Below are positions 1 through 16,398 of a stretch of DNA of 44,586 nt, piece after piece. A model generated the notes under the pieces. It did not search any database and was not told where the DNA came from. It saw nothing but the letters and a program-made list of their open reading frames with translations. The stretch comes from Verrucomicrobiota bacterium. GTDB taxonomy: Bacteria; Verrucomicrobiota; Verrucomicrobiia; Chthoniobacterales; UBA10450. The stretch lies in contig QHOS01000039.1 of assembly GCA_003219415.1 (NCBI GenBank), positions 1-44,586 of the forward strand, in the 5' to 3' direction. The first letter of the stretch is position 1, and every line of letters begins with the position of its first letter. Position numbers and translations under genes: made by a program.

Positions 1-578
1 TCAAGCTGAATGTCAGTGGCGTCCTTTTCAAAGAGACGCTCGATCAGATGGGACAGGTGATAGACACTTGCCTCGACTTGGGCATCCCGGTCCATGCTCG
101 CGTGGTCCACGACGATCTCGTGCACGACCGCGCCTTGCGTGATGCAAGTGCAAGCGAGCCGCTGCTCCGCTTTCTCGAGCACCAGGAGAAACTGAAGCGC
201 AGCGGCGAGAAGATTCACTCGAGCTGGAACCTTTTCGCTTACCAAAAGAAGATGCTGCGGCAGGAACCGGTCGAATGGACCTGCATCGCGGGCTATAAAT
301 ATTTCTTCGTCTCATCGACCGGCAAGTTCTGGCTCTGCAGCCAGGTGCGAACCGAGAGGCACATTCTCGAGATCACGCGGGAAGATCTGCTGGGCTACAA
401 CCGGAAGAAGGATTGCCAGGCGAGATGCGGCGTTTATTGCACCGCACAGGCCTCACTGGCCGTGAGCCATCCCCTGCAATACGCCGGCCGGGAAGTGGCG
501 GGGATGCTGGCAAGTCGGGTGTCAAGGATGCGGCGCGGCGGGCACGAGCGAATTCGTGATCTGGCGTTCGCCCAGTAA
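1..578 (+). CDS. Radical SAM protein with SPASM-type C-terminus, 5'-truncated by the window edge
   Basis: The reading frame is open from position 3, before the first in-window ATG at 48, so the gene starts outside the window. The visible 191 residues form the end of a radical SAM enzyme: the last part of the barrel (KLNVSGVLFKETLDQM, then PVHARVVHDDLVH) followed by a cysteine-bearing tail with GKFWLCSQV and DCQARCGVYC. That spacing is typical of SPASM or twitch domains, which hold an auxiliary iron-sulfur cluster. The CX3CX2C SAM-cluster motif would lie upstream and is not seen, so the reaction and substrate cannot be named. The last 17 codons fall inside a segment that recurs at 2535. A plus-strand glycosyltransferase gene follows. 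Confidence 0.75.
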   Translation, partial: KLNVSGVLFKETLDQMGQVIDTCLDLGIPVHARVVHDDLVHDRALRDASASEPLLRFLEHQEKLKRSGEKIHSSWNLFAYQKKMLRQEPVEWTCIAGYKYFFVSSTGKFWLCSQVRTERHILEITREDLLGYNRKKDCQARCGVYCTAQASLAVSHPLQYAGREVAGMLASRVSRMRRGGHERIRDLAFAQ

Positions 579-676
579 GCGAAGCTCCGATTTACGAAGG
601 CCCGCGGCCAGAGTTTTATTTGGCAGTCGGCGTCAGCAGGTTAACTGTTTACGGTAAATTCGATATGTTTTGTATC
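527..676. repeat. Segment A, copy 1 of a diverged 150-bp duplication (partner 2535..2686)
   Basis: Starting at GATGCGGCGCGGCGGGCACG, this stretch matches 2535..2686 with scattered substitutions and small indels, up to TAAATTCGATA and TTGTATC. It contains the last codons of the radical SAM gene, a short spacer and, on the minus strand, the 3' end of a decayed GNAT gene. The match is far too long and ordered to be chance. Confidence 0.8.
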
Positions 677-735
677 GAACCGCACCGAATCCAACAACCA
701 GTTTCTCTGCGCACTTATCGTCCTCCTGCCTAGAC
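633..735 (-). pseudogene. C-terminal remnant of a ceramide-synthase-like GNAT acyltransferase (copy 1)
   Basis: Read on the minus strand, about 30 codons ending in TGA at 633-635 give EDDKCAEKLVVGFGAVRYKT then YRIYRKQLTC. This aligns with the C-terminus of the intact GNAT encoded at 4251..5384 (LEDNFMINRFLEAIGAHRYK, TYRIYSK), sharing the diagnostic RYKTYRIY block. Upstream, toward 735 and beyond, the frame no longer resembles the family, so only the tail survives. It is convergent with the radical SAM gene. I infer that a related acyltransferase once stood here. Confidence 0.6.
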
Positions 736-2836: not shown

Positions 2837-4024
2837 TTATTGGCTGTTCAGAGTGATTTGCGGAGCAGGTTCGCTTGCATCAATCCGTGCACTCACCTTC
2901 TGGATTTGTGCGCTCTGTTCTTTCACAGTCGCAGCGAGCGCTGAAATTTCCTGTTTAAGCTCTTGCACAGTGCGATGCTCTTTGAGGAATTCATTCAGCA
3001 ACATCGCGTTTATCGCCTCGTAGCGCACAGTGTTCACTTTGCCGTCCTCATCGCGTACAACCAAGTCGGGGTCGACCGCTTCCACGTCCTCAGCCACCAA
3101 GCCAAACTGCGGAATCTTTTGCGGCTCTATTTCTTTCTTGTAACGGAAGATGACCGGTTTAAGCGCGAAAAGCACTTCGCTGGATTGTGCCATTGGCCGG
3201 ATCTGCTCTTTAAACCTCCGGGAGGAAGTGATCGTGCCGAGCTTGCCGCTTGAATTAATGAAAACCGCAGCTCCCCCTGAAGAGGTCTGGCCAAATACGC
3301 TGCCGATAAAACAGCTGTTGCTTACATTCGCACCTACGACCCCGGAACCGATACAGATAACATTACCGGCCGTGGTGACATTGTTGCCGGCCCCAAAGCC
3401 TAAGGCCGTGTTGGCGCTGCCGGTGCTATTGTTTTCCAGCGAATGAGCGCCATCTGTTGTATTGAAATTGCCCGTTGTGTTGTTACTGAGCGCGACGTCA
3501 CCGTTGGCTGTGTTGTGGTTTCCCGTTGTGTTTCTCACTAACGCGGAAAAACCATCGGCCGTGTTGTGGAAACCGGTGGTGTTTGCAAAGAGCGCCCTCG
3601 AACCAGTGCCTGCATTCTCGAAGCCAGTGCTGTTGGCAAATAGCACTTCAAAACCAACTGCGGTGTTGTTGGGGCCAGTTGTATTAAGAAGCAGAGCACC
3701 AAATCCATTGGCCGTATTATCACTGCCAGTCGTGTTGCTACCGAGTGCGCCAATACCAGCCGCCGTGTTATTACTGCCAGTGGTATTGCTAAAAAGAGCG
3801 TCAAATCCAATGGCCGTATTCGAGGTGCCGCTGGTAAGACTTTGGAGCGCGCCATCTCCCTCAGCTGTGTTAAAGCCGGGATAGCCTCCATCCGGCGCCG
3901 GGGTCACCGCTCTGGCCTCCGGCAAAAGCGCAGCACACATTAGGACGAGTGGGATGAGAATCAACGCGCATCGTAAAGGCGAATGGCTGATCGAATGGCT
4001 GATCGGTAAAATTATCGTTTTCAT
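2837..4024 (-). CDS. Secreted repeat protein with C-terminal S74 intramolecular chaperone domain
   Basis: The protein has 395 residues. A signal peptide (hydrophobic LILIPLVLMCAALL, likely cleavage after ARA, residue 39) is followed by about eight 17-residue repeats of the form NTAxGxxALxxNTTGxx (residues about 65-210), which should stack as a beta-roll or beta-helix. The C-terminal part carries the S74 domain: TSSRRFKEQI, ALKPVIFRYKKE, QFGLVAEDVEAV, and a final heptad-like helix (about 345-385). S74 domains trimerise fibre-like proteins and usually cleave themselves off at the SS-R-x-K motif, which is intact here. A surface or secreted trimeric fibre is therefore likely, though its binding target is unknown. 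The start is supported by AGAGGAAA ahead of the ATG. A longer paralogue is encoded at 39526. Confidence 0.8.
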   Translation of the reverse strand: MKTIILPISHSISHSPLRCALILIPLVLMCAALLPEARAVTPAPDGGYPGFNTAEGDGALQSLTSGTSNTAIGFDALFSNTTGSNNTAAGIGALGSNTTGSDNTANGFGALLLNTTGPNNTAVGFEVLFANSTGFENAGTGSRALFANTTGFHNTADGFSALVRNTTGNHNTANGDVALSNNTTGNFNTTDGAHSLENNSTGSANTALGFGAGNNVTTAGNVICIGSGVVGANVSNSCFIGSVFGQTSSGGAAVFINSSGKLGTITSSRRFKEQIRPMAQSSEVLFALKPVIFRYKKEIEPQKIPQFGLVAEDVEAVDPDLVVRDEDGKVNTVRYEAINAMLLNEFLKEHRTVQELKQEISALAATVKEQSAQIQKVSARIDASEPAPQITLNSQ

Positions 4025-4250: not shown

Positions 4251-5384
4251 CTACGCAATGGATTTGCTGTAGATGCGATATGTCTTGTAGCGGTGGGCGC
4301 CAATCGCTTCGAGAAAACGATTGATCATGAAATTATCTTCAAGCGTGAGACTGAGTTCTCCAGTGAATCCATGTTTAATCATTGCGTCTTCGACAATTCG
4401 CAGCACAAGCATTTCGGCAATACCAGCGCGGCGATATTTTTCGATCACGCCAAGCGCGATAAGCCGCGCAGTCCGGATACGGCTCTTGTAATAAAGGAGT
4501 TTTAGAAGCCCGATTGGAAATCCAAAAGTTGTAAGCCGGCCGTTGATATGGCGTAGGGCGACGTTAATGTCTGGCACACATAGGATGAAGCCGGCTGGCT
4601 CGTCGCCAACTTCCGCAATGAGCGTGAACTCCGGAATGATGAGCTGGCTAAGCTCGTGCGTCATAAACTCGATCTCTGCTTCCGTGAACGGCACAAAACC
4701 CCAGTTGTTTTTCCACGCTTGATTGTAAATCTGACGGAGCCGTCTGCTTTCCTCGCGAATATTCTTGAGGTTTCCAGCTCGGATCGTGACAGCCAAACGC
4801 TTTCGAAAACGTTCGCCCAGAGGTCGCAAACGCGCCGCGGCTCTTGCCGGGTCGGCAAACCACCAGGCGTACCAATCTTTTGCTTTTGTAAAACCGCAGC
4901 TCTCGATCAGGTCTTTGTAGTACGGGGGATTGTGCGCGGTCAATATGGTTGGCGGAAACTGAAACCCATCAATCAAAAGAGCGCAGACATAGTTCGTTGA
5001 GTAGTCAATCGGTCCCATGATTTCCGTGCGTCCTCTTTCGCGAAGCCAATGCTCCGCGCGTTCAAAGAGCGCAGCAGCCACATCGCGATTGTCGATGCAC
5101 TCAAACAAGCCGAAGCAGCCGACGTTCGATTGATGCAATGCATTGTAATTCGGATCGTCGCTCGCCATGATTCGGCCAGCGATCTTGCGGTTTTTCCTCG
5201 CGAGAAATAAGGCGGCGTCGCCATGTCTGTAGAACGGATGCCGTTTACGATCGAGGAACGCTTTGCGTTCGATGATTAGGGGCGGTACCCAGGCTGGATC
5301 GTTGACATAAATTCGCCATGGAAACTTGATGAACGCATTGCGCTCGCGGCGCGAGATCACTTCTGAAATTTCGATGTTCGACAC
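4251..5384 (-). CDS. GNAT-family acyltransferase resembling bacterial ceramide synthase (bCerS/YghO-like)
   Basis: The protein has 377 residues, the usual length for the YghO-like GNAT family, which includes the bacterial ceramide synthase described in Caulobacter. Family hallmarks visible are FGLFECIDN (about 94-102), MGPIDYSTNYVCALLIDGF (about 123-141), NPPYYKDLIESCGF (about 151-164), and a GNAT acyl-CoA/ACP-binding loop near KYRRAGIAE (about 316-324). The C-terminus RYKTYRIY is also characteristic. The proposed role is N-acylation of a sphingoid base to a ceramide in the cytoplasm. It is the last gene of the minus-strand operon, behind the CDP-alcohol phosphotransferase and SPT-like genes, and that context is what raises the ceramide assignment above a generic GNAT. 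Remnants of two related genes lie at 633 and 2643. The fold is certain; the substrate is inferred. Confidence 0.8.
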   Translation of the reverse strand: MSNIEISEVISRRERNAFIKFPWRIYVNDPAWVPPLIIERKAFLDRKRHPFYRHGDAALFLARKNRKIAGRIMASDDPNYNALHQSNVGCFGLFECIDNRDVAAALFERAEHWLRERGRTEIMGPIDYSTNYVCALLIDGFQFPPTILTAHNPPYYKDLIESCGFTKAKDWYAWWFADPARAAARLRPLGERFRKRLAVTIRAGNLKNIREESRRLRQIYNQAWKNNWGFVPFTEAEIEFMTHELSQLIIPEFTLIAEVGDEPAGFILCVPDINVALRHINGRLTTFGFPIGLLKLLYYKSRIRTARLIALGVIEKYRRAGIAEMLVLRIVEDAMIKHGFTGELSLTLEDNFMINRFLEAIGAHRYKTYRIYSKSIA

Positions 5385-5402
5385 GGAGGCGAAAGGCTAC
5401 AA

Positions 5403-5496
5403 TGTCATTCTGAGCGAAGCGAAGAATCTCGGATCATTTCTGGACCGAGTCGCCCACGGAAATAGACAGAGATGTTTCGCTCCGCTCAACATGACA
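5403..5496. repeat. Imperfect palindromic intergenic element (28-bp arms)
   Basis: Left arm 5403..5430 (TGTCATTCTGAGCGAAGCGA...) and right arm 5469..5496 (...GCTCCGCTCAACATGACA) are inverted repeats matching at 23 of 28 positions, around a 38-base centre. It fills the gap between the CDP-alcohol phosphotransferase and GNAT genes and would form a large hairpin in the operon mRNA. Sequences of this type (TGTCATTCTGAGCGAAGCGAAG) recur between genes in many soil bacterial genomes, so a REP or MITE-like mobile origin is likely. It could also modulate expression of the last gene. Confidence 0.7.
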
Positions 5497-5505
5497 AAGG
5501 GCCTA

Positions 5506-6432
5506 TCAAGCGGGTTCTAACGTTTCCAGGAGCGACTCGGCCATATCTTCCTGGCGAAACAGGAGGTAAACGAAGAGTAAATTGAGCGGGATGAGCTCAA
5601 ACCAGAAGTAATAAACTGGTTGGCTGATGAACAGAAGCGCAAACAAGACCAGCATCCGGACATTCGTCATCAAGAGTCGCCACCACTTGAGCGTCGGCCG
5701 GGCCAAATTTCGATAACGCGTTCTTAGCCGTTCAGGAATTTCGCCGTGAAACAATTGGCGGACCACATCACGCAACGTTTTTAAGCGCGGCGCCAGCATT
5801 TCCTGTTGGCGGGTAAAGTTCAAATACAACGCAAGCAGAAGCTTCTGCCACGGTGTGTGACGCCAGGTCAACTTCGAGTAATCCGATCGCAGGCCGGACA
5901 ACGAATCTACGCTCGTCCGCGCTCCCGTCGTTACAAAGTAAAGATAGGTGCTGCGATAATAGTCAGCCGCTGCTCCTTGCAATGCGTGACTGATCCCAAC
6001 AGCACACGCGAGAAGAATGATGGCAGGCGACGAGCCTGCGAACAGACAGCGGAGAGTCAAGTGCAAGTAAACACTGACAAAGACCAGGTGGTCGGCAACG
6101 CTGTCGATGATACGGCCCTCGCGGCTTTCTCGATGGGTCAGACGCGCGAGCTGGCCGTCCGCGTTGTCGAGCGTATTCGCGCAAACATGGAGCATCATCC
6201 CCACCACGTTGATGCCTAGATGGCGATAGTAATAAAGGTGTCCGGCAACAACGCCAAAGATGCCGGCCAGGAGGCTCACTGCCGCGGGCGTCATCTTGAG
6301 CCACGCAAAAAACCGGGCCAACCAAAACCCTATTGGCCTGTAGAAATAGAGATCGAACACTCCTTCGACCTCGCGCGCTTTGTATGTAGCCTCGACGCCT
6401 GAGCGCGGCGCGTCTGTTTGTCGTAGCATCAA
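5506..6432 (-). CDS. CDP-alcohol phosphotransferase, probable sphingolipid headgroup transferase
   Basis: The protein has 308 residues. It carries the complete CDP-alcohol phosphotransferase signature D-x2-D-G-x2-A-R-x8-G-x3-D-x3-D, seen as DNADGQLAR then GRIIDSVAD, with metal-binding Asp 89, 92, 110 and 114. About six membrane segments follow the family layout, and a long basic amphipathic insert lies at about 200-250. Enzymes of this family swap CMP of a CDP-alcohol for a lipid alcohol, or the reverse, at the inner membrane. Lying between the SPT-like and ceramide-synthase-like genes, it may make a ceramide phospho-headgroup; Bacteroides uses a family member for inositol phosphorylceramide. 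The headgroup cannot be read from the sequence. A glycerophospholipid role remains possible. Confidence 0.8.
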   Translation of the reverse strand: MMLRQTDAPRSGVEATYKAREVEGVFDLYFYRPIGFWLARFFAWLKMTPAAVSLLAGIFGVVAGHLYYYRHLGINVVGMMLHVCANTLDNADGQLARLTHRESREGRIIDSVADHLVFVSVYLHLTLRCLFAGSSPAIILLACAVGISHALQGAAADYYRSTYLYFVTTGARTSVDSLSGLRSDYSKLTWRHTPWQKLLLALYLNFTRQQEMLAPRLKTLRDVVRQLFHGEIPERLRTRYRNLARPTLKWWRLLMTNVRMLVLFALLFISQPVYYFWFELIPLNLLFVYLLFRQEDMAESLLETLEPA

Positions 6433-6515
6433 TAATTACACCGGCCGTCGCGATGCTGTGGTTAACGCCTCGAATCAAACCCGGCAGCTTTGTACATCTT
6501 TCCGGCCAGCGCGCA

Positions 6516-7772
6516 TCAGGCGCTTTGCTTTTGCAGTGCCACTGGAACGAGTGTGTCCGCGAGGATGTTTAAGGCTTCGTCCAGATCTGCGCGCGTATGT
6601 TTGGCAGTCACACAAGCACGAAAACATATCCGATGTTGCGGCACAGCCGGATAATCAACGGGAGCAACCCACAGACCACGGCGTCGCAGTTCATGTCCCA
6701 GCCGATACATGCGCTCCCGATCACCAATGACAATCGGCATCACGTATGTCGTCGATCCCCCAGTATTCAATCCGAGACCACGAAGTTGCGCGTGGAAGTA
6801 ATCGGCGTTTTCCCAAAGTTGGGTCCGCAATTCCGGCTGCTTCGTGCCGAGCTCCAGCGCTTTTAGAATTGCCGCGATCACCACGGGTGGCAGCGCACAG
6901 GAATAAACATACGGATGCGCATAAAATCGGAGGTATTGCAGCGTCTCCTTGGAACCGGCTACGAAGCCTCCCAGTGCTCCGAAAGCCTTGGAGAAGGTCC
7001 CATAAACCAGCGGAACGCGGTCCTCCACTCCGAACTTTTCCGCCGCCCCGCGACCATGTTCGCCACATGCCAGCATGGAATGCGCTTCATCAATAAAAAC
7101 GCTCGCGCCGTGAGATTCTGCGACAGCGAGTAATTCCGTCAGGTTGCCGAAATCGCCATCCATCGAATAAATGCCTTCCACTATCACGAGCTGGCGGCGC
7201 CCTTTTTGACGGCTCAGCGCGGCATCAAGCGAACCCGCGTCGTTATGCTCGAATTTCTCGGTGCGGCATCGGGACAGGACCGCGCCATCGCGCAAACTGA
7301 GGTGCGAGCGGTTGTCCAGAAGGGCGACGTCGGTCTTGCGAAGCAGCCCGGAGATCGTGCCTAGCGCGCCCCCAAATCCACTGTTGAATAGCATCGCATC
7401 CTCACGTCCAAGAAACTTTGCGACGCGCCGTTCGAGCTCCCGATGCAGATCCGTCATTCCGGAAAGCATGGGCGATCCGCAAGCTCCCAATCCATGGGTG
7501 CGGAGCGCCTCGTGCGCCGCGATCAGAACCTCGGGATGATTGGCAAGGCCGAGATAATTATACGAACAGAGATTAATCACCGGCCGCGGCCTGCCGCCGT
7601 AACTGATCACTGTGCGCGCATCCGCTGTGCCAAGCAGCTCAGGTTCATACAATTCAACCGCCCACGCGCCAACGCGCATCCAGTTTGTAAAGCTCGCTGG
7701 AGCTTGCAGCGGATCATTGCTTTCACCCGCCAGGAAATTGCTCAGACTAAGTTTTGCCGGGTCCTGGTTCAT
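6516..7772 (-). CDS. Serine palmitoyltransferase-like alpha-oxoamine synthase (PLP)
   Basis: The protein is a class II alpha-oxoamine synthase of 418 residues from the ATG at 7772. The frame extends to a TTG at 7829, but those extra 19 residues are not conserved-looking. Family features are NYLGLANHP (about 72-80), the cofactor-stacking His in NRSHLSLRDG (about 157), the PLP-nitrogen Asp in FIDEAHS (about 229) and the Schiff-base Lys in GTFSKAFGALGG (about 262). Homologues include serine palmitoyltransferase, KBL, BioF and HemA. Sequence alone does not separate these. The neighbours (bCerS-like GNAT, DEGS-like desaturase, FA2H-like hydroxylase) point to SPT, condensing L-serine with an acyl thioester to 3-ketosphinganine. 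There are no biotin or threonine-catabolism genes nearby. The RBS is weak; GTG at 7784 is another possible start. Confidence 0.8.
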   Translation of the reverse strand: MNQDPAKLSLSNFLAGESNDPLQAPASFTNWMRVGAWAVELYEPELLGTADARTVISYGGRPRPVINLCSYNYLGLANHPEVLIAAHEALRTHGLGACGSPMLSGMTDLHRELERRVAKFLGREDAMLFNSGFGGALGTISGLLRKTDVALLDNRSHLSLRDGAVLSRCRTEKFEHNDAGSLDAALSRQKGRRQLVIVEGIYSMDGDFGNLTELLAVAESHGASVFIDEAHSMLACGEHGRGAAEKFGVEDRVPLVYGTFSKAFGALGGFVAGSKETLQYLRFYAHPYVYSCALPPVVIAAILKALELGTKQPELRTQLWENADYFHAQLRGLGLNTGGSTTYVMPIVIGDRERMYRLGHELRRRGLWVAPVDYPAVPQHRICFRACVTAKHTRADLDEALNILADTLVPVALQKQSA

Positions 7773-8077
7773 CAAATGGTACACTGTCTTTCGCTCGCTC
7801 CCGTCCCTACGGACGGCCCGTCCCAGCAAAGTTGAGGGTTTTTGTGCTTCACAGCTTCCTTACGAAGTTATCTGCTACATCCGCAGAGTTCCGTGTCGGG
7901 GCAGCTAATTTAGCGAGTTTAGGATTCCGGACAAGACTTTAGTCGATTTGTAGCCATCGGCCCTGTGGGCTGTTTGATTCTCATTGCAACAGCTTTTGTC
8001 GACCGGCCACGGGTCCGTCACCGGACGGATTTCGTCGTGCGGCGAACCGGTGGCTTCAGGGTGCGATGGACCGCCGC
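7773..8077. other. 305-base intergenic gap inside the sphingolipid gene run
   Basis: This is the only long gap between the lipid genes. I see no convincing gene on either strand. It holds a small hairpin, GTCCG-TCAC-CGGAC (about 8026-8039), and GC-rich inverted patches. Its position upstream of the SPT-like gene makes it the natural place for an internal promoter for SPT, CDP-alcohol phosphotransferase and GNAT, but I cannot point to clear -35/-10 boxes. Confidence 0.4.
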
Positions 8078-8692
8078 CTACTTCCGCGTCGTGCGGAAAA
8101 CGTAATCCCATAGCGGCGAGCTAATGCCGTATCCGACGTGATCGTCCTTGAAATGATGGCGGAGGTGATACTGCTTCAGCCAAAGCCACACGCCGCTTTT
8201 CATGGCGAGATGGTGCGTCGCATAATGGAGCATGTCATAGCAGAGATACCCGAAAACCAACCCCGCAAACACCGCCGGCGCCAGGCTTCCAAAAATTAGA
8301 AAGAATAGACCAAAAAAAAGAAACGCGAGCGGGATGCTTATGGCTGGCGGCATAACGAGCCGGCGCGCGTCGTTAGGATAATCGTGATGCACTCCGTGAA
8401 TCACAAAGTGCAGCTGCTTTCCCCAACGAGTCTTCGGTTCGTAATGGAAGATGTACCGGTGAATGAGGTACTCGATCAGCGTCCAGAGCAAAATACCCAG
8501 CAAAAACAACGCCGCTACGGCAACAAACGACAATTGCCGTCGCCACAAAGACACGTAAAGCATGTAGCCAACCACCGGCAAATACAGCGCCAACGGAATC
8601 ACCGGATGCACCCGTGAAAAAAACTCCATGAAATCGCTCTCGAACATCCGGACTGTTTCGTTCTTGTTCGAGACGTATAGTCGGTCTGCCAT
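8078..8692 (-). CDS. Fatty acid 2-hydroxylase-like membrane di-iron enzyme (FA2H/Scs7 type)
   Basis: The protein has 204 residues from the ATG at 8692; a TTG six bases earlier would overlap the desaturase stop. It matches the catalytic half of eukaryotic FA2H/Scs7 without the cytochrome b5 domain. It has four membrane segments and the His clusters EYLIHRYIFHYEP (His 78, 83), HFVIHGVHHDYPND (His 95, 99, 102, 103), YDMLHYATHH (His 156, 160, 161) and QYHLRHHFKDD (His 176, 179, 180), which bind two metal ions. FA2H enzymes place an (R)-hydroxyl at C2 of the N-acyl chain of ceramides using O2. The ceramide-gene context supports the same role here, though carotenoid or sterol hydroxylases share the superfamily. 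Two bases separate its start from the stop of the desaturase gene, so the two are probably translated together. Confidence 0.82.
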   Translation of the reverse strand: MADRLYVSNKNETVRMFESDFMEFFSRVHPVIPLALYLPVVGYMLYVSLWRRQLSFVAVAALFLLGILLWTLIEYLIHRYIFHYEPKTRWGKQLHFVIHGVHHDYPNDARRLVMPPAISIPLAFLFFGLFFLIFGSLAPAVFAGLVFGYLCYDMLHYATHHLAMKSGVWLWLKQYHLRHHFKDDHVGYGISSPLWDYVFRTTRK

Positions 8693-8694
8693 GA

Positions 8695-9741
8695 TCAAAA
8701 ACTAATTGGCCTCGCACTCAGATCAAGGCTGCCAATTTGGCTGGGTGTCGCGTCGGGGACCCGGCGATAGTCGGCCTTTTGTTTCATTCGTTCAACCCGG
8801 GAATACAGGCTGTATCGCTTATCGAAAACGAACTGGAACAGCAACCGGCTCCACGATGAGTGATACTTCAGATCGCTGTAAAATTCCGGGGCCATCGCGC
8901 GCAGTTTCGGCAGGTTGTTCCACGGGATCGAGGGGAGATCGTGGTGTTCGTTGTGATAACCCATGTTTAGCGCTACGCGATTGATTGGCCCGTAATAGCT
9001 GAATGTCTCCTGGTCGAAATCGTAAGTGTAATGCTCCTGGATCCAGCGAGCCCCAACCGGGTGCAACCCAATCGAAAAGAAAAACGCGAACACGAGATAA
9101 AGAAATCCCGGCCAACCGCAAAGATAAATGACGGCCACATCGTAGAGCGCGGCACACGCAAAATTGATGAAGAACCAGCGATCCCACATCGTAATCGCCT
9201 TCAATCGTGGCGGGCGCGTCAGCTGAAAAAATGGGAAGAGCATGAGCCAGATTGCCTTCGTGAACCACCTGTTGCCTACCAGGCGCGCTTCCCAATGGTT
9301 CGCCAGGTCTGCGTCGTATTCGTAATCACCCTGATGAGAATGATGCTTTAAATGATAAACACGAAAGCCCATCGCGCCGGGCGCGAGATTGGGAAGATCG
9401 GCGATGACGGCCACCATCTTGTTCCACCTTTTGTTCCGGAAAATCAGATTGTGAGTTGCGTCGTGAATAATGACGTAATTCGCATGATTGGCGAACGCAC
9501 CGACGCAATAGGCAATGAGAAGACTCAGCCACCAGTAACCAAATCCGAGTTTTCCCATTCCAAACGCGATGGCTGTCTGCATGACTACGATTGAAGCGGC
9601 AATGAGCGCCGTCCACGGATTGCGCACCATCAGTTGCCGGACTTCCGGATGCGCTTTGACGATCGCACGCGCCCGCCCCGGATGCGGTTGATCGGATTCA
9701 GATTGATAAAACGCAGCCTGCATCGGCTTCAAAATATGCAT
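8695..9741 (-). CDS. Sphingolipid delta-4 desaturase-like (DEGS/DES family) membrane desaturase
   Basis: The protein has 348 residues, close to eukaryotic dihydroceramide desaturases. The N-terminal block PHPGRARAIVKAHPEVRQLM matches the DES-specific N-terminal domain (P-H-x-x-R...HPEI-x-x-LM). The histidine boxes are HDATHN (93-98), HLKHHSHQG (130-138) and HNEHHD (263-268). Beyond general desaturases, it has the DES-type run EHYTYDFDQETFSYYGPIN and GYHNEHHDLPSIPWNNLP, and ends FDKRYSLYSRVER. Family members introduce the 4,5-trans double bond (some also C4-hydroxylate) in the sphingoid base, using O2 and reduced cytochrome b5 or an equivalent. It sits between the exporter and the 2-hydroxylase. 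The resemblance to the eukaryotic enzyme is striking for a bacterial gene. The substrate is inferred from family and context. Confidence 0.85.
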   Translation of the reverse strand: MHILKPMQAAFYQSESDQPHPGRARAIVKAHPEVRQLMVRNPWTALIAASIVVMQTAIAFGMGKLGFGYWWLSLLIAYCVGAFANHANYVIIHDATHNLIFRNKRWNKMVAVIADLPNLAPGAMGFRVYHLKHHSHQGDYEYDADLANHWEARLVGNRWFTKAIWLMLFPFFQLTRPPRLKAITMWDRWFFINFACAALYDVAVIYLCGWPGFLYLVFAFFFSIGLHPVGARWIQEHYTYDFDQETFSYYGPINRVALNMGYHNEHHDLPSIPWNNLPKLRAMAPEFYSDLKYHSSWSRLLFQFVFDKRYSLYSRVERMKQKADYRRVPDATPSQIGSLDLSARPISF

Positions 9742-9754
9742 TGTGGACGTATCC

Positions 9755-11839
9755 TCAAACGCGCTTTTTCAAGGGCGCCGCACCGAGCAGCGGCAATACA
9801 AACAGATTTGCCAGGATGTCTATGATGCAGCCAGCGAGCACCACGAGGCCAAAACGCTGAGTCGGTGGAAAATCTGATAGCACGAAAATGGCGAAACCCG
9901 CGGCGATAATCACGTCCGAATAAACAATCCCGCGCCATTGCTCTTCGCGCGCGAAGACCCAGGCGTTCCACCCTTTCTTTCCGTCGCGTTGCGCGCGGCG
10001 GACCCCGAACATGAGATGAATCATCGAATCGATTGCAATGCCGATGCAGACGTTTGTGGCCGGCGCCGAAATGACGTCCACCGGCACATGAAACCAGCCG
10101 ATCCCTCCAAGCATCGACAGCGGCACAAGCGTCAGGCTCGCGATCATCGCTACCGCACCGCGGACAGATCGGGCGACAACCAGCGCGATCACAACGAACA
10201 ACAGATTCAGCCAGAACAATCCGGTCACGAGACTTTCAGCGACGAGTTTGGCGAGCCGACCTTGCAAATAATAAATACCGCCGACGAGGTCAGCCTTGAA
10301 TCCATACTTGCGACAGAGAGCGCGAAGATCGTTCACAACATCGACACGGTATTTCGTACGGCGTGCCTCGATCATCCGGAGTGTGAAAACCGCGTCCGCA
10401 CGGTCTTTACTGACAAAACTTTTGGCCACGCGCGCATACTTCGGTTGCTCCATGATCTCCATCATCTTTTCGTAGCTTATGAGAAACGAAAACGGCGTGC
10501 GATCGCCTTCGGCCAGAAGCGTTGGCAACGAAATTACAGTGCCAACATCTTTCTCGTTTTCCAGCGCGCCATGCAGCCTCCACATTCTTTGGTAGGCCTC
10601 ATCCGTGTTCAGCCTGGTGCCGCTCGTCGCGGAGACGACCAGTGTCAGCGGGTTGGAGCCGCCGGTCCGATCTACGAATTCCAGTCCGTCGCGAAGTTCC
10701 CGATTCGGCTTGAAATAAGCCATAAGGCTCGGGTCAGTGTTCACCCTCGTCAGACCAAGTCCCAAACCTACTGCCAGCAAAATGACGGCTAACGAGAGCA
10801 AGGCAAACCGGCGCGACCAAAATGCATGCGTAGGTTCTGCCTCGACGATTTTGCTTTTCCGCGGCACGGCCCAGCGCAGGAACGCCGGATACATCAAATA
10901 AGCGCAAACGAACGCGACAACTGTGCCAAGCACTCCGCCAAATCCCAATTCGCGCAACGGCTTTGCCTGAACAATTAACAGACTGGCAAAGCCTAACGAT
11001 GCGCAAACCATCGACCAGAACGAAGGCGGAAAAGTCATGCGCCGCGCGTCGGCTGCGAGATCGGGCGACTCCTTGTCCAGACGATGCGCGCGATCGGCAA
11101 GCGTTTGCCAGTTGAAGGTCATGTAAACCAGGTGTGAAAGCGCGATGACGAACACGATCGTACCGAGGTTGACCGTCAAAACGCCGATCTTGTCGCCGAG
11201 CATCGATTGGATGAGCAACGTCAACAAAACAGCGCTGCTGCATGTGCAAAGCATTCCTACAAACAGCCGGATTGATCGGAACAGCGCGGCCATCGTTAGG
11301 CCAAACAAGACAACCGCCGTGAGACTGAAGTAGCGGAAATCGTGCGCCAGACTGCGTCGGAGCATTTCAACGACGTACGGCGGACCCGCGATGTGAATCC
11401 GAAAATCTCGCGCGTTCAGTTCGTGCACGATTTGTTCGAGGCGCTGGATCGGCTTTTCCGTATGCCTGCCTTTCATGAAAATGATCACGTTGCTGGACTT
11501 CCGGTCGTGCGCGATCAACAAGCGGCTCCAGAACGGGCTTTTCAGTGCATCTTCAAGGCTTTTAGGTCCCTCAGCGAGGCTCTTTACGGCGCTCACTCCA
11601 CCGATGGTGTGGGCTCGTTGGGTGAGTTTTTGAATTCGACTCAGGTATCGTGGCGAAGAAATATCGCGTGACGACACCGCCAGAATCACTTCTGGCTGCG
11701 AAGGAAAACTTTGCTCGATCTTTTTGGTTTGCTGGATTCCGGGATCATTCGTTGAAAAGAAAAAATTCTGGTCCACGACGGGCGTCAGGTCCACGAACGC
11801 AGCGACCAGTACAAGCAGCACGCCGCCGATCACGAGCAT
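9755..11839 (-). CDS. MMPL/RND-superfamily membrane exporter, candidate sphingolipid transporter
   Basis: The protein has 694 residues from the ATG at 11839. The frame stays open to 11962, but that extension is the translation of a tRNA gene and is rejected. The layout is a duplicated RND fold: one N-terminal span, a periplasmic loop (about 25-175), five spans (about 180-345), then a second span, loop and five-span set (about 360-690). Proteins of this class move lipids (mycobacterial MmpL, hopanoid HpnN) to the periplasm or outer membrane using the proton gradient. The gene ends 13 bases before the desaturase start and heads the lipid genes, which suggests it carries their product. Its start lies only 9 bases after the tRNA end, leaving no room for a separate promoter. 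Confidence 0.8.
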   Translation of the reverse strand: MLVIGGVLLVLVAAFVDLTPVVDQNFFFSTNDPGIQQTKKIEQSFPSQPEVILAVSSRDISSPRYLSRIQKLTQRAHTIGGVSAVKSLAEGPKSLEDALKSPFWSRLLIAHDRKSSNVIIFMKGRHTEKPIQRLEQIVHELNARDFRIHIAGPPYVVEMLRRSLAHDFRYFSLTAVVLFGLTMAALFRSIRLFVGMLCTCSSAVLLTLLIQSMLGDKIGVLTVNLGTIVFVIALSHLVYMTFNWQTLADRAHRLDKESPDLAADARRMTFPPSFWSMVCASLGFASLLIVQAKPLRELGFGGVLGTVVAFVCAYLMYPAFLRWAVPRKSKIVEAEPTHAFWSRRFALLSLAVILLAVGLGLGLTRVNTDPSLMAYFKPNRELRDGLEFVDRTGGSNPLTLVVSATSGTRLNTDEAYQRMWRLHGALENEKDVGTVISLPTLLAEGDRTPFSFLISYEKMMEIMEQPKYARVAKSFVSKDRADAVFTLRMIEARRTKYRVDVVNDLRALCRKYGFKADLVGGIYYLQGRLAKLVAESLVTGLFWLNLLFVVIALVVARSVRGAVAMIASLTLVPLSMLGGIGWFHVPVDVISAPATNVCIGIAIDSMIHLMFGVRRAQRDGKKGWNAWVFAREEQWRGIVYSDVIIAAGFAIFVLSDFPPTQRFGLVVLAGCIIDILANLFVLPLLGAAPLKKRV

Positions 11840-11848
11840 CAACCAGTG

Positions 11849-11921
11849 CGACCCTAACGGGATTCGAACCCGTGTTACCGCCGTGAAAGGGCGGTGTCCT
11901 GGGCCTCTAGACGATAGGGTC
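11849..11921 (-). tRNA. tRNA-Glu (anticodon TTC)
   Basis: The minus strand folds as a standard cloverleaf: acceptor stem GACCCTA/TAGGGTC, D-arm CGTCTAGAGGCCCAGGACA, anticodon stem CCGCC/GGCGG around loop CTTTCAC (anticodon TTC), and T-arm with GGTTCGAATCC. The discriminator is G at 11849. CCA is not encoded. Most of the body matches E. coli tRNA-Glu as I recall it. It lies between waaA and the MMPL exporter, both on the same strand. Confidence 0.97.
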
Positions 11922-15528: not shown

Positions 15529-16398
15529 GTGACCGATACGATTGTCATTCTCAATCCAACCGCGGGAAGCCCGGAACATATTCGGAGCTGGCAGGAACGC
15601 ATCGAATCACTCACTGGTGAGTGCCCCGTCCGTATTACTGCACATTCTGGCGACGCGAAGGCGCTGGCCAGGCGCGCAGTCGAAGCGGGATTTAGGCGGA
15701 TCGTCGCGGCAGGCGGCGACGGAACAGTTAGCCAGGTGGCAAACGGACTCGCCGACAGCAATGCCACATTAGGCGTGCTCCCAATGGGAAGTGTGAATGT
15801 TTTCGCGATGGAGCTTGGCTTGCCATTGCACAATCTCCAGCGCTGCTGGGATATCATCGAAGGCACAAACGTCCGTCTGGTCGATCTGCCGAGTGCGAAT
15901 GGGAAAGATTTTGTCCAACTTGGCGGCGTGGGGCTGGACGCACAGGTAGTCAAAGAGACCAGCCTCGCTTTCAAACGCAGTTTCGGGCCGCTGAGCTATC
16001 TCATCTCCGCAACCCACATCGCGGCACGGCAACCGCCGAAGCTCTTCATCGAGTCGGAGCATACTGCTGTGGAAGAAGGATCGTTCGTTCTCATTGGCAA
16101 CGGACGCCTTTACGGAGGGCCCTTCCCGTTTTTTAAACACGCTATCATCGACGATGGTTTGTTTGATGTCGTGGTCTTCAAACGGCTCGGCTATCTCGAA
16201 ATCGTCAAGTATCTCCAGGACGTCGTATTCAGCTCCGACATTAAGGTTCCGGAAATCGAATATTTTCAGACGCGGCAATTGCGCATAACGAGCGAACAGG
16301 ACGTTCCTCTTGAGCTCGATGGCGAACTCGCGGGCAATTGCCCGGTTGATTTCCGAATTCGGAAGAGAGCGCTTCGCGTTCTGGCGCCTACGCCCTGA
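15529..16398 (+). CDS. YegS/BmrU-type lipid kinase (diacylglycerol/sphingoid kinase family)
   Basis: The protein has 289 residues, starting at GTG 15529. The DAGK catalytic N-domain is complete: ILNPTAGSPEH (about 7-17), AAGGDGTVSQVANGL with the nucleotide-binding GGDGT at 62-66, and LGVLPMGSVNVFAMELGLP (about 81-99). A beta-sandwich C-domain with GNGRLYGGPFP and DGLFDVVVFK completes the family fold. These cytosolic or peripheral enzymes phosphorylate lipid alcohols such as diacylglycerol, sphingosine or ceramide. It is divergent from the sphingolipid-bearing operon (61-base gap to the asmA-like gene), which makes ceramide or sphingoid base a possible substrate, but diacylglycerol or undecaprenol are equally allowed. 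It is followed 19 bases later by glnE. Confidence 0.85.
   Translation: MTDTIVILNPTAGSPEHIRSWQERIESLTGECPVRITAHSGDAKALARRAVEAGFRRIVAAGGDGTVSQVANGLADSNATLGVLPMGSVNVFAMELGLPLHNLQRCWDIIEGTNVRLVDLPSANGKDFVQLGGVGLDAQVVKETSLAFKRSFGPLSYLISATHIAARQPPKLFIESEHTAVEEGSFVLIGNGRLYGGPFPFFKHAIIDDGLFDVVVFKRLGYLEIVKYLQDVVFSSDIKVPEIEYFQTRQLRITSEQDVPLELDGELAGNCPVDFRIRKRALRVLAPTP

Follow-up and report, generated by a model that had tools for sequence, protein, structure and literature searches.

The window analysed here is a stretch of 44,586 nucleotides from a soil Verrucomicrobiota bacterium of the Candidatus Udaeobacter group (GenBank assembly GCA_003219415.1, contig QHOS01000039.1, positions 1 to 44,586 of the forward strand), and it carries six open reading frames (ORFs) that probably form an operon for the synthesis and tailoring of a sphingolipid. 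The genes lie on the minus strand, from window position 11839 down to 4251. The first encodes an MMPL/RND-type lipid exporter of the HAE3/HpnN-like kind (9755..11839; PF03176, E 2.8e-21). This is followed by DES, a sphingolipid Delta4-desaturase-type membrane enzyme of 348 amino acids (8695..9741), and by FAH, an FA2H/Scs7-type fatty acid 2-hydroxylase of 204 amino acids (8078..8692). The remaining three genes encode an alpha-oxoamine synthase of 418 amino acids that resembles serine palmitoyltransferase (SPT; 6516..7772), a CDP-alcohol phosphotransferase with a probable role in the headgroup step (5506..6432; PF01066, E 6.6e-10) and a GNAT N-acyltransferase of 377 amino acids (4251..5384). 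ORF calls and family matches agree with the original prediction, in which six same-strand genes of these families were placed at this locus.

As listed, the MMPL ORF extends to 11962 and overruns an upstream tRNA-Glu gene on the same strand. Because the tRNA gene occupies 11848-11921, the likely start of the MMPL gene is the ATG at 11839. The likely starts of FAH and the synthase are ATG codons at 8692 and 7772, the latter matched by alignment of the second copy (L124), with an upstream TTG at 7829 as a possible alternative. The intergenic gaps measure 13 bp (MMPL-DES), 2 bp (DES-FAH), 305 bp (FAH-SPT), 83 bp (SPT-CDP) and 121 bp (CDP-GNAT), and this spacing makes a single transcript across the six genes plausible.

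In a profile search, DES matches PF00487 at 92.4 bits (E 5.2e-26). Its N-terminal domain matches PF08557 (Lipid_DES) at 34.6 bits against a curated cut-off of 23, and the same domain is present in the relatives L110 and L093. Three histidine boxes, HX3H, HX2HH and HNEHH, are kept across 46 sequences. A structure model based on these 46 sequences, which replaced an earlier one from 11 close sequences (pLDDT 55), predicts a desaturase fold with a pLDDT of 86. A sequence search of the PDB with DES gave no match, and a fold search returned generic desaturases. It appears that DES is a sphingolipid Delta4-desaturase-type enzyme, and Delta4 activity on dihydroceramide is predicted. It is like the eukaryotic DEGS1 and DEGS2 in combining PF00487 with the PF08557 N-terminal domain and in its histidine boxes, but unlike them it is bacterial and operon-encoded. 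The DES tree was built from bacterial sequences (Bacteroidota, Verrucomicrobia and Alphaproteobacteria); the first two groups are intermixed in it, and the Alphaproteobacteria fall among them. Neither protein patterns nor a DNA pattern for the peptide YHNEHHDFP detected eukaryote-type relatives of DES in viral contigs.

FAH matches PF04116 (E 9.7e-20), and its best match in the PDB is yeast Scs7/FA2H (E 7.3e-33), with which it shares the metal-ligand histidine motifs and an RLVMPP segment. FAH therefore appears to be of the FA2H/Scs7 type, with a predicted 2-hydroxylase activity. Functional FA2H homologues are already known in bacteria, namely myxobacteria (PMC10002949). The FA_hydroxylase domain, the histidine motifs and the RLVMPP segment link FAH to the eukaryotic FA2H and yeast Scs7 enzymes. 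FAH differs in being clustered with ceramide-synthesis genes and in consisting of PF04116 alone, without the N-terminal cytochrome b5 domain of the eukaryotic members. Separately, five classical Alphaproteobacterial SPT clusters (L162, L164, L166, L170 and L171) carry a distantly related FA_hydroxylase-like gene of 250-270 amino acids beside the ceramide synthase gene.

The GNAT protein is homologous along its entire length to E. coli B YghO, with 39% identity across 381 alignment columns (E 6e-82). PMC9386255 lists YghO as an orthologue of CC_1154, an N-acyltransferase that Caulobacter needs to make ceramide. A PDB search with the GNAT protein found no match, and the family identity came by way of YghO; members of the family also lie near classical SPTs in Alphaproteobacteria. 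Membership of the bacterial ceramide synthase family (bCerS, aca, YghO/CC_1154) is thus supported by homology. The Lipid_DES domain above its cut-off, the Scs7 match and the full-length YghO homology bear out the original prediction as regards a DEGS-like desaturase, an FA2H-like hydroxylase and a bCerS-like GNAT.

The best PDB match of the oxoamine synthase is the Sphingobacterium SPT 3a2b (E 1.1e-75). Cysteate acyltransferase 28eh is matched as well (E 9e-60), with SPT structures scoring higher. In a tree, the synthase belongs to a deep clade of its own (support 100), apart from KBL, BioF and ALAS. The possibility that it is the KBL or the BioF of this genome was rejected because both are encoded by separate genes (661 bits against a cut-off of 493 for KBL, 446 against 426 for BioF). 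An SPT-like gene apart from KBL and BioF occurs in most genomes of the host's family. Nevertheless, the synthase is the least certain of the enzyme identities, and serine is its presumed substrate.

The MMPL protein gives weak HpnN and HAE3 matches, and MMPL adjoins DES in several contigs of the Udaeobacter group. Downstream of the operon, relatives carry genes for a second CDP-alcohol transferase, a MobA-like nucleotidyltransferase and a short-chain dehydrogenase/reductase (SDR). The genome of the window holds a second DES-FAH-SPT-CDP-GNAT copy on contig C225, while contig C236 carries an SDR, a CTP:inositol-1-phosphate cytidylyltransferase-like gene, a second CDP-alcohol transferase and a myo-inositol-phosphate synthase (MIPS). 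No CerR homologue was found in the window as a ketoreductase; a KdsR-related SDR is encoded elsewhere in the genome. For the SDR of C236, KdsR (3-ketodihydrosphingosine reductase) is the third-best NCBIfam match, at 153 bits against a cut-off of 400. For the nucleotidyltransferase, the closest match is CTP:inositol-1-phosphate cytidylyltransferase (2xme, E 4e-21); the second CDP-alcohol transferase most resembles the inositolphosphotransferase half of NF041135. Among NCBIfam models, the transferase in the window matches inositol-phosphate lipid synthases best, with every score far under the cut-off. MIPS (PF01658) lies on the contig of the cluster genes, no more than about 18 kb away, in all five Verrucomicrobia and Saprospiraceae genomes checked, including that of the window (on C236); it was absent or off the cluster contig in the two Alphaproteobacteria and one Chitinophagales genome checked. 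The headgroup is probably inositol phosphate, to judge from these gene families. The six-gene set of the original prediction thus stands as to families, but it omits the ketoreductase outside the operon, the second operon copy and the headgroup genes that point to inositol. Positions 1-168 of locus L123 (C236 of genome G000) also hold the end of a further GNAT gene, whose DNA is 78-85% identical to the copies in the window and on C225; accordingly, either two or three cluster versions are present in the assembly or strains are mixed in it.

The synteny check across related genomes that accompanied the original prediction came out in its favour, as some 20 further Verrucomicrobia contigs, among them Candidatus Udaeobacter, show the order DES-FAH-SPT-CDP-GNAT. 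DES was detected in 37 of 61 genomes of the host's family at E <= 0.001, a few of these matches being weak. FAH adjoins DES in 26 of 31 family loci, the exceptions being one contig end and four loci of genus g6 (L025, L026, L028 and L029). Across the phylum DES is nearly absent otherwise: 4 of 289 genomes surveyed have it, three of them from the host's family, including that of the window. An artefact of one genome was rejected on the strength of dozens of independent loci, and chance adjacency on that of the FAH-DES pairing and the conserved gene order. A contig labelled Acidobacteria gp1 (L056) has a complete Verrucomicrobia-type operon, with DES at 78%, and is probably a mis-binned Verrucomicrobia contig.

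The strongest support for a sphingolipid product is comparative and comes from an operon of the Saprospiraceae and from compact Alphaproteobacterial operons. In the Saprospiraceae contig L093 (genome G066), a single strand encodes a CDP-alcohol transferase, DES, FAH, a PAP2 protein, SPT, GNAT, a reductase and MIPS. Here the SPT exceeds its curated cut-off (NF047600, 681 against 640), and so does the CDP-alcohol transferase for the Bt-type PIP synthase (NF052561, 354.5 against 350). The sole match of the PAP2 protein is phosphoinositol dihydroceramide synthase (NF052609), at 276 bits and below the cut-off of 480, and the reductase is CerR-like (27% to E. coli epi, E 1e-37). Two Chitinophagales-type Bacteroidota (L070 and L072, in G068 and G069) have DES without nearby sphingolipid genes and an SPT-like gene on another contig.

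In Alphaproteobacteria (Beijerinckiaceae, Methylocystaceae and Methylobacteriaceae), 15 compact loci have oxoamine synthase, GNAT and DES together, six of them with FAH; named Methylocella, Methylocapsa and Beijerinckia strains have DES as well. Since the same accessory enzymes join three oxoamine synthases in three phyla, it may be inferred that the tailoring set travels between bacteria and that all three synthase types make long-chain-base lipids.

Family-level gene identities, co-location and recurrence in other phyla all suggest an operon for making and tailoring a sphingolipid, a reading to which a probability of roughly 0.78 is given. The SPT-like synthase would join serine to an acyl thioester, and the resulting 3-keto base would be N-acylated by the YghO/CC_1154-type GNAT. 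The KdsR-related SDR encoded elsewhere would reduce the 3-keto group; in Caulobacter, acylation precedes reduction (PMC11087976). FAH would add a hydroxyl at C2 of the N-linked acyl chain, and a Delta4 double bond or C4 hydroxyl would come from DES. The phospho-headgroup attached by the CDP-alcohol transferases would most probably be inositol phosphate, supplied through the MIPS of the genome and the CTP:inositol-phosphate cytidylyltransferase-like protein. Finally, the MMPL protein would carry the lipid toward the outer membrane. Substrates, step order, headgroup and export are all deduced from gene content. The end product is best read as a ceramide that is 2-hydroxylated and Delta4-unsaturated (or 4-hydroxylated) and bears a phospho-headgroup, probably inositol.

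Several results weigh against this pathway. The synthase falls below the curated SPT cut-offs (317 of 500 bits for NF047599, 310 of 640 for NF047600 and 254 of 670 for NF047603). Its clade stands beside SPT with a non-significant support of 74-80, not inside the known SPT clade, and a topology test did not reject its union with KBL (p-AU 0.657) or with BioF (p-AU 0.168). The SPT-like synthase of the original prediction accordingly holds in part: the protein lies outside the KBL, BioF and ALAS clades, but also outside that of SPT, and reaches no curated SPT cut-off. The Alphaproteobacterial operons, moreover, use a third oxoamine clade. The KdsR scores of the SDRs are 182 and 153 against a cut-off of 400, and generic SDRs score alike. 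The weak matching of the CDP-alcohol transferase in the window makes the headgroup evidence indirect, and tblastn with the BT_1522-like protein of Saprospiraceae found nothing in the window or in L123, L124, L213 and L214. Homologues of acyl carrier protein or acyl-ACP synthetase (acpR, aasR) were not found in the window or in the loci checked.

Among the alternatives, one keeps the sphingolipid pathway and changes the role of DES. A match to the PF08557 family does not separate Delta4 desaturation from C4 hydroxylation. DES could yield a C4-hydroxylated base, because DEGS2-type enzymes are bifunctional and act as desaturase and C4-hydroxylase (PMC10140171). DES would then be mainly a C4-hydroxylase of the phytosphingosine type, or bifunctional like DEGS2. 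Among the features examined none favours hydroxylation over desaturation, and this alternative is considered unlikely. It also qualifies the ceramide of the original prediction, which the gene families support except that the base may be 4-hydroxylated in place of 4-unsaturated. A further possibility concerns the substrate: the synthase may use glycine, alanine or homoserine, for example, and form another N-acylated amino-ketone or amino-alcohol, so that the operon would yield a 1-deoxy or other non-canonical sphingoid lipid. The separate clade of the synthase and the unrejected union with KBL speak for this, as do the known bacterial bases from homoserine and threonine (PMC11765627). However, since headgroup transfer genes share the operon, a free primary hydroxyl is implied, which glycine and alanine do not give, and the best PDB match is an SPT. 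A base of this type is judged improbable.

It could also be postulated that the synthase uses cysteate and that DES and FAH tailor capnine-type sulfonolipids. The homology to cysteate acyltransferase is consistent with this, and many DES relatives are from Bacteroidota, a phylum with sulfonolipids (PMC9304779). Against it, CDP-alcohol transferases and inositol genes need a serine-derived hydroxyl, an attachment point that the sulfonate does not offer; the SPT of the Saprospiraceae operon passes its curated cut-off, and SPT structures outscore 28eh. A sulfonolipid pathway is consequently regarded as very improbable. As CDP-alcohol transferase, MMPL and desaturase families also act on glycerolipids, the genes might be a chance gathering of glycerolipid-modifying functions with no sphingoid product. 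This can hardly be sustained in view of the Lipid_DES domain, the YghO homology and the joint recurrence of DES, FAH, oxoamine synthase and a bCerS-family gene in three phyla.

The surroundings of the operon contain further features. At the left edge of the window, the C-terminal portion of a radical SAM protein is encoded (48..578, plus strand; family c21). As this gene trails the operon in relatives, the cluster probably continues beyond the edge; the start of contig C236 is 91% identical to window 415-688. The place of the remaining sphingolipid cluster in relatives is occupied here by a repeat-rich protein (2837-4024, minus strand) that resembles, by eye, a trimeric autotransporter or a tail fibre with a C-terminal chaperone domain. 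A palindromic repeat (TGTCATGTTGAGCG ... CGCTCAGAATGACA) is found at 5411-5496, in the gap that separates the CDP-alcohol transferase gene from GNAT. A PMT_2 (ArnT-like) glycosyltransferase is encoded at 834-2363 on the plus strand; because its homologues (family c42) adjoin DES in L051, L054, L055, L075 and L108, the lipid of the operon may be glycosylated. Close to the operon, on the opposite strand, is a gene for a YegS-type lipid kinase (15529-16398, plus strand). The phosphosphingolipids of Caulobacter involve the ceramide kinase CC_1160.

Bacterial ceramide synthesis, inositol sphingolipids (PMC9246714) and bacterial FA2H homologues (PMC10002949) are already known. An SPT-family enzyme (here, the SPT-like synthase) and a YghO/CC_1154-family N-acyltransferase are common to this operon and the clusters of Caulobacter crescentus and E. 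coli B (BL21), which comprise spt, acpR, aasR, epi/CerR and aca/bCerS. Phospho-headgroup genes are likewise shared with Caulobacter, where they are the CDP-alcohol transferase-type CC_1159 and nucleotidyltransferases (PMC11324152). Here, by contrast, acpR and aasR homologues were not found in the window or checked loci, DES and an FA2H-type enzyme are present, and the ketoreductase is probably a KdsR-type SDR encoded elsewhere and not CerR. Acyl hydroxylation in Caulobacter has been assigned to the DesA-type CC_0202, encoded elsewhere in its genome (PMC11324152). The inositol pathway of Bacteroides thetaiotaomicron (BT_1522-1526 with SPT) is similar in its linkage of MIPS and a CDP-alcohol transferase to sphingolipid genes, and the Saprospiraceae relative has members like its PIP synthase and phosphoinositol dihydroceramide synthase. 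Its product is phosphoinositol dihydroceramide, and the paper mentions neither desaturase nor hydroxylase (PMC9246714). The CTP:inositol-phosphate cytidylyltransferase-like gene of the Verrucomicrobia loci recalls the NTP-transferase "alternative" cluster of B. vulgatus and Prevotella (PMC9246714).

Bacterial sphingolipids in the cited papers are dihydroceramide-based. In the open-licence literature, whose coverage is incomplete, no bacterial Delta4-desaturase, no operon of DES, FA2H and ceramide synthesis, and no report on sphingolipids in Udaeobacter or Methylocella was found. The novelty claimed for both modifying enzymes in one operon is in keeping with this partial literature, but the combination is not unique to the window, because DES, FAH, synthase and GNAT recur in Alphaproteobacteria and Saprospiraceae.

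A Delta4 double bond and a 2-hydroxyl are textbook traits of eukaryotic sphingolipids. A far-reaching and tentative extension, given less than even odds, is that a mobile operon module enables bacteria of three phyla to produce and export a full complex sphingolipid of the eukaryotic type, a 2-hydroxylated, Delta4-unsaturated ceramide that is inositol-phosphorylated in two of them, with DES and FA2H as a possible source of the eukaryotic enzymes or as products of the reverse transfer. The operons in abundant soil Verrucomicrobia, in Bacteroidota and in methylotroph-related Alphaproteobacteria offer bacterial systems in which the enzymes and their role in the membrane can be tested, and in which the direction of gene exchange with eukaryotes becomes testable. 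Ceramides of the 4-ene type from soils or guts need not have a eukaryotic source.

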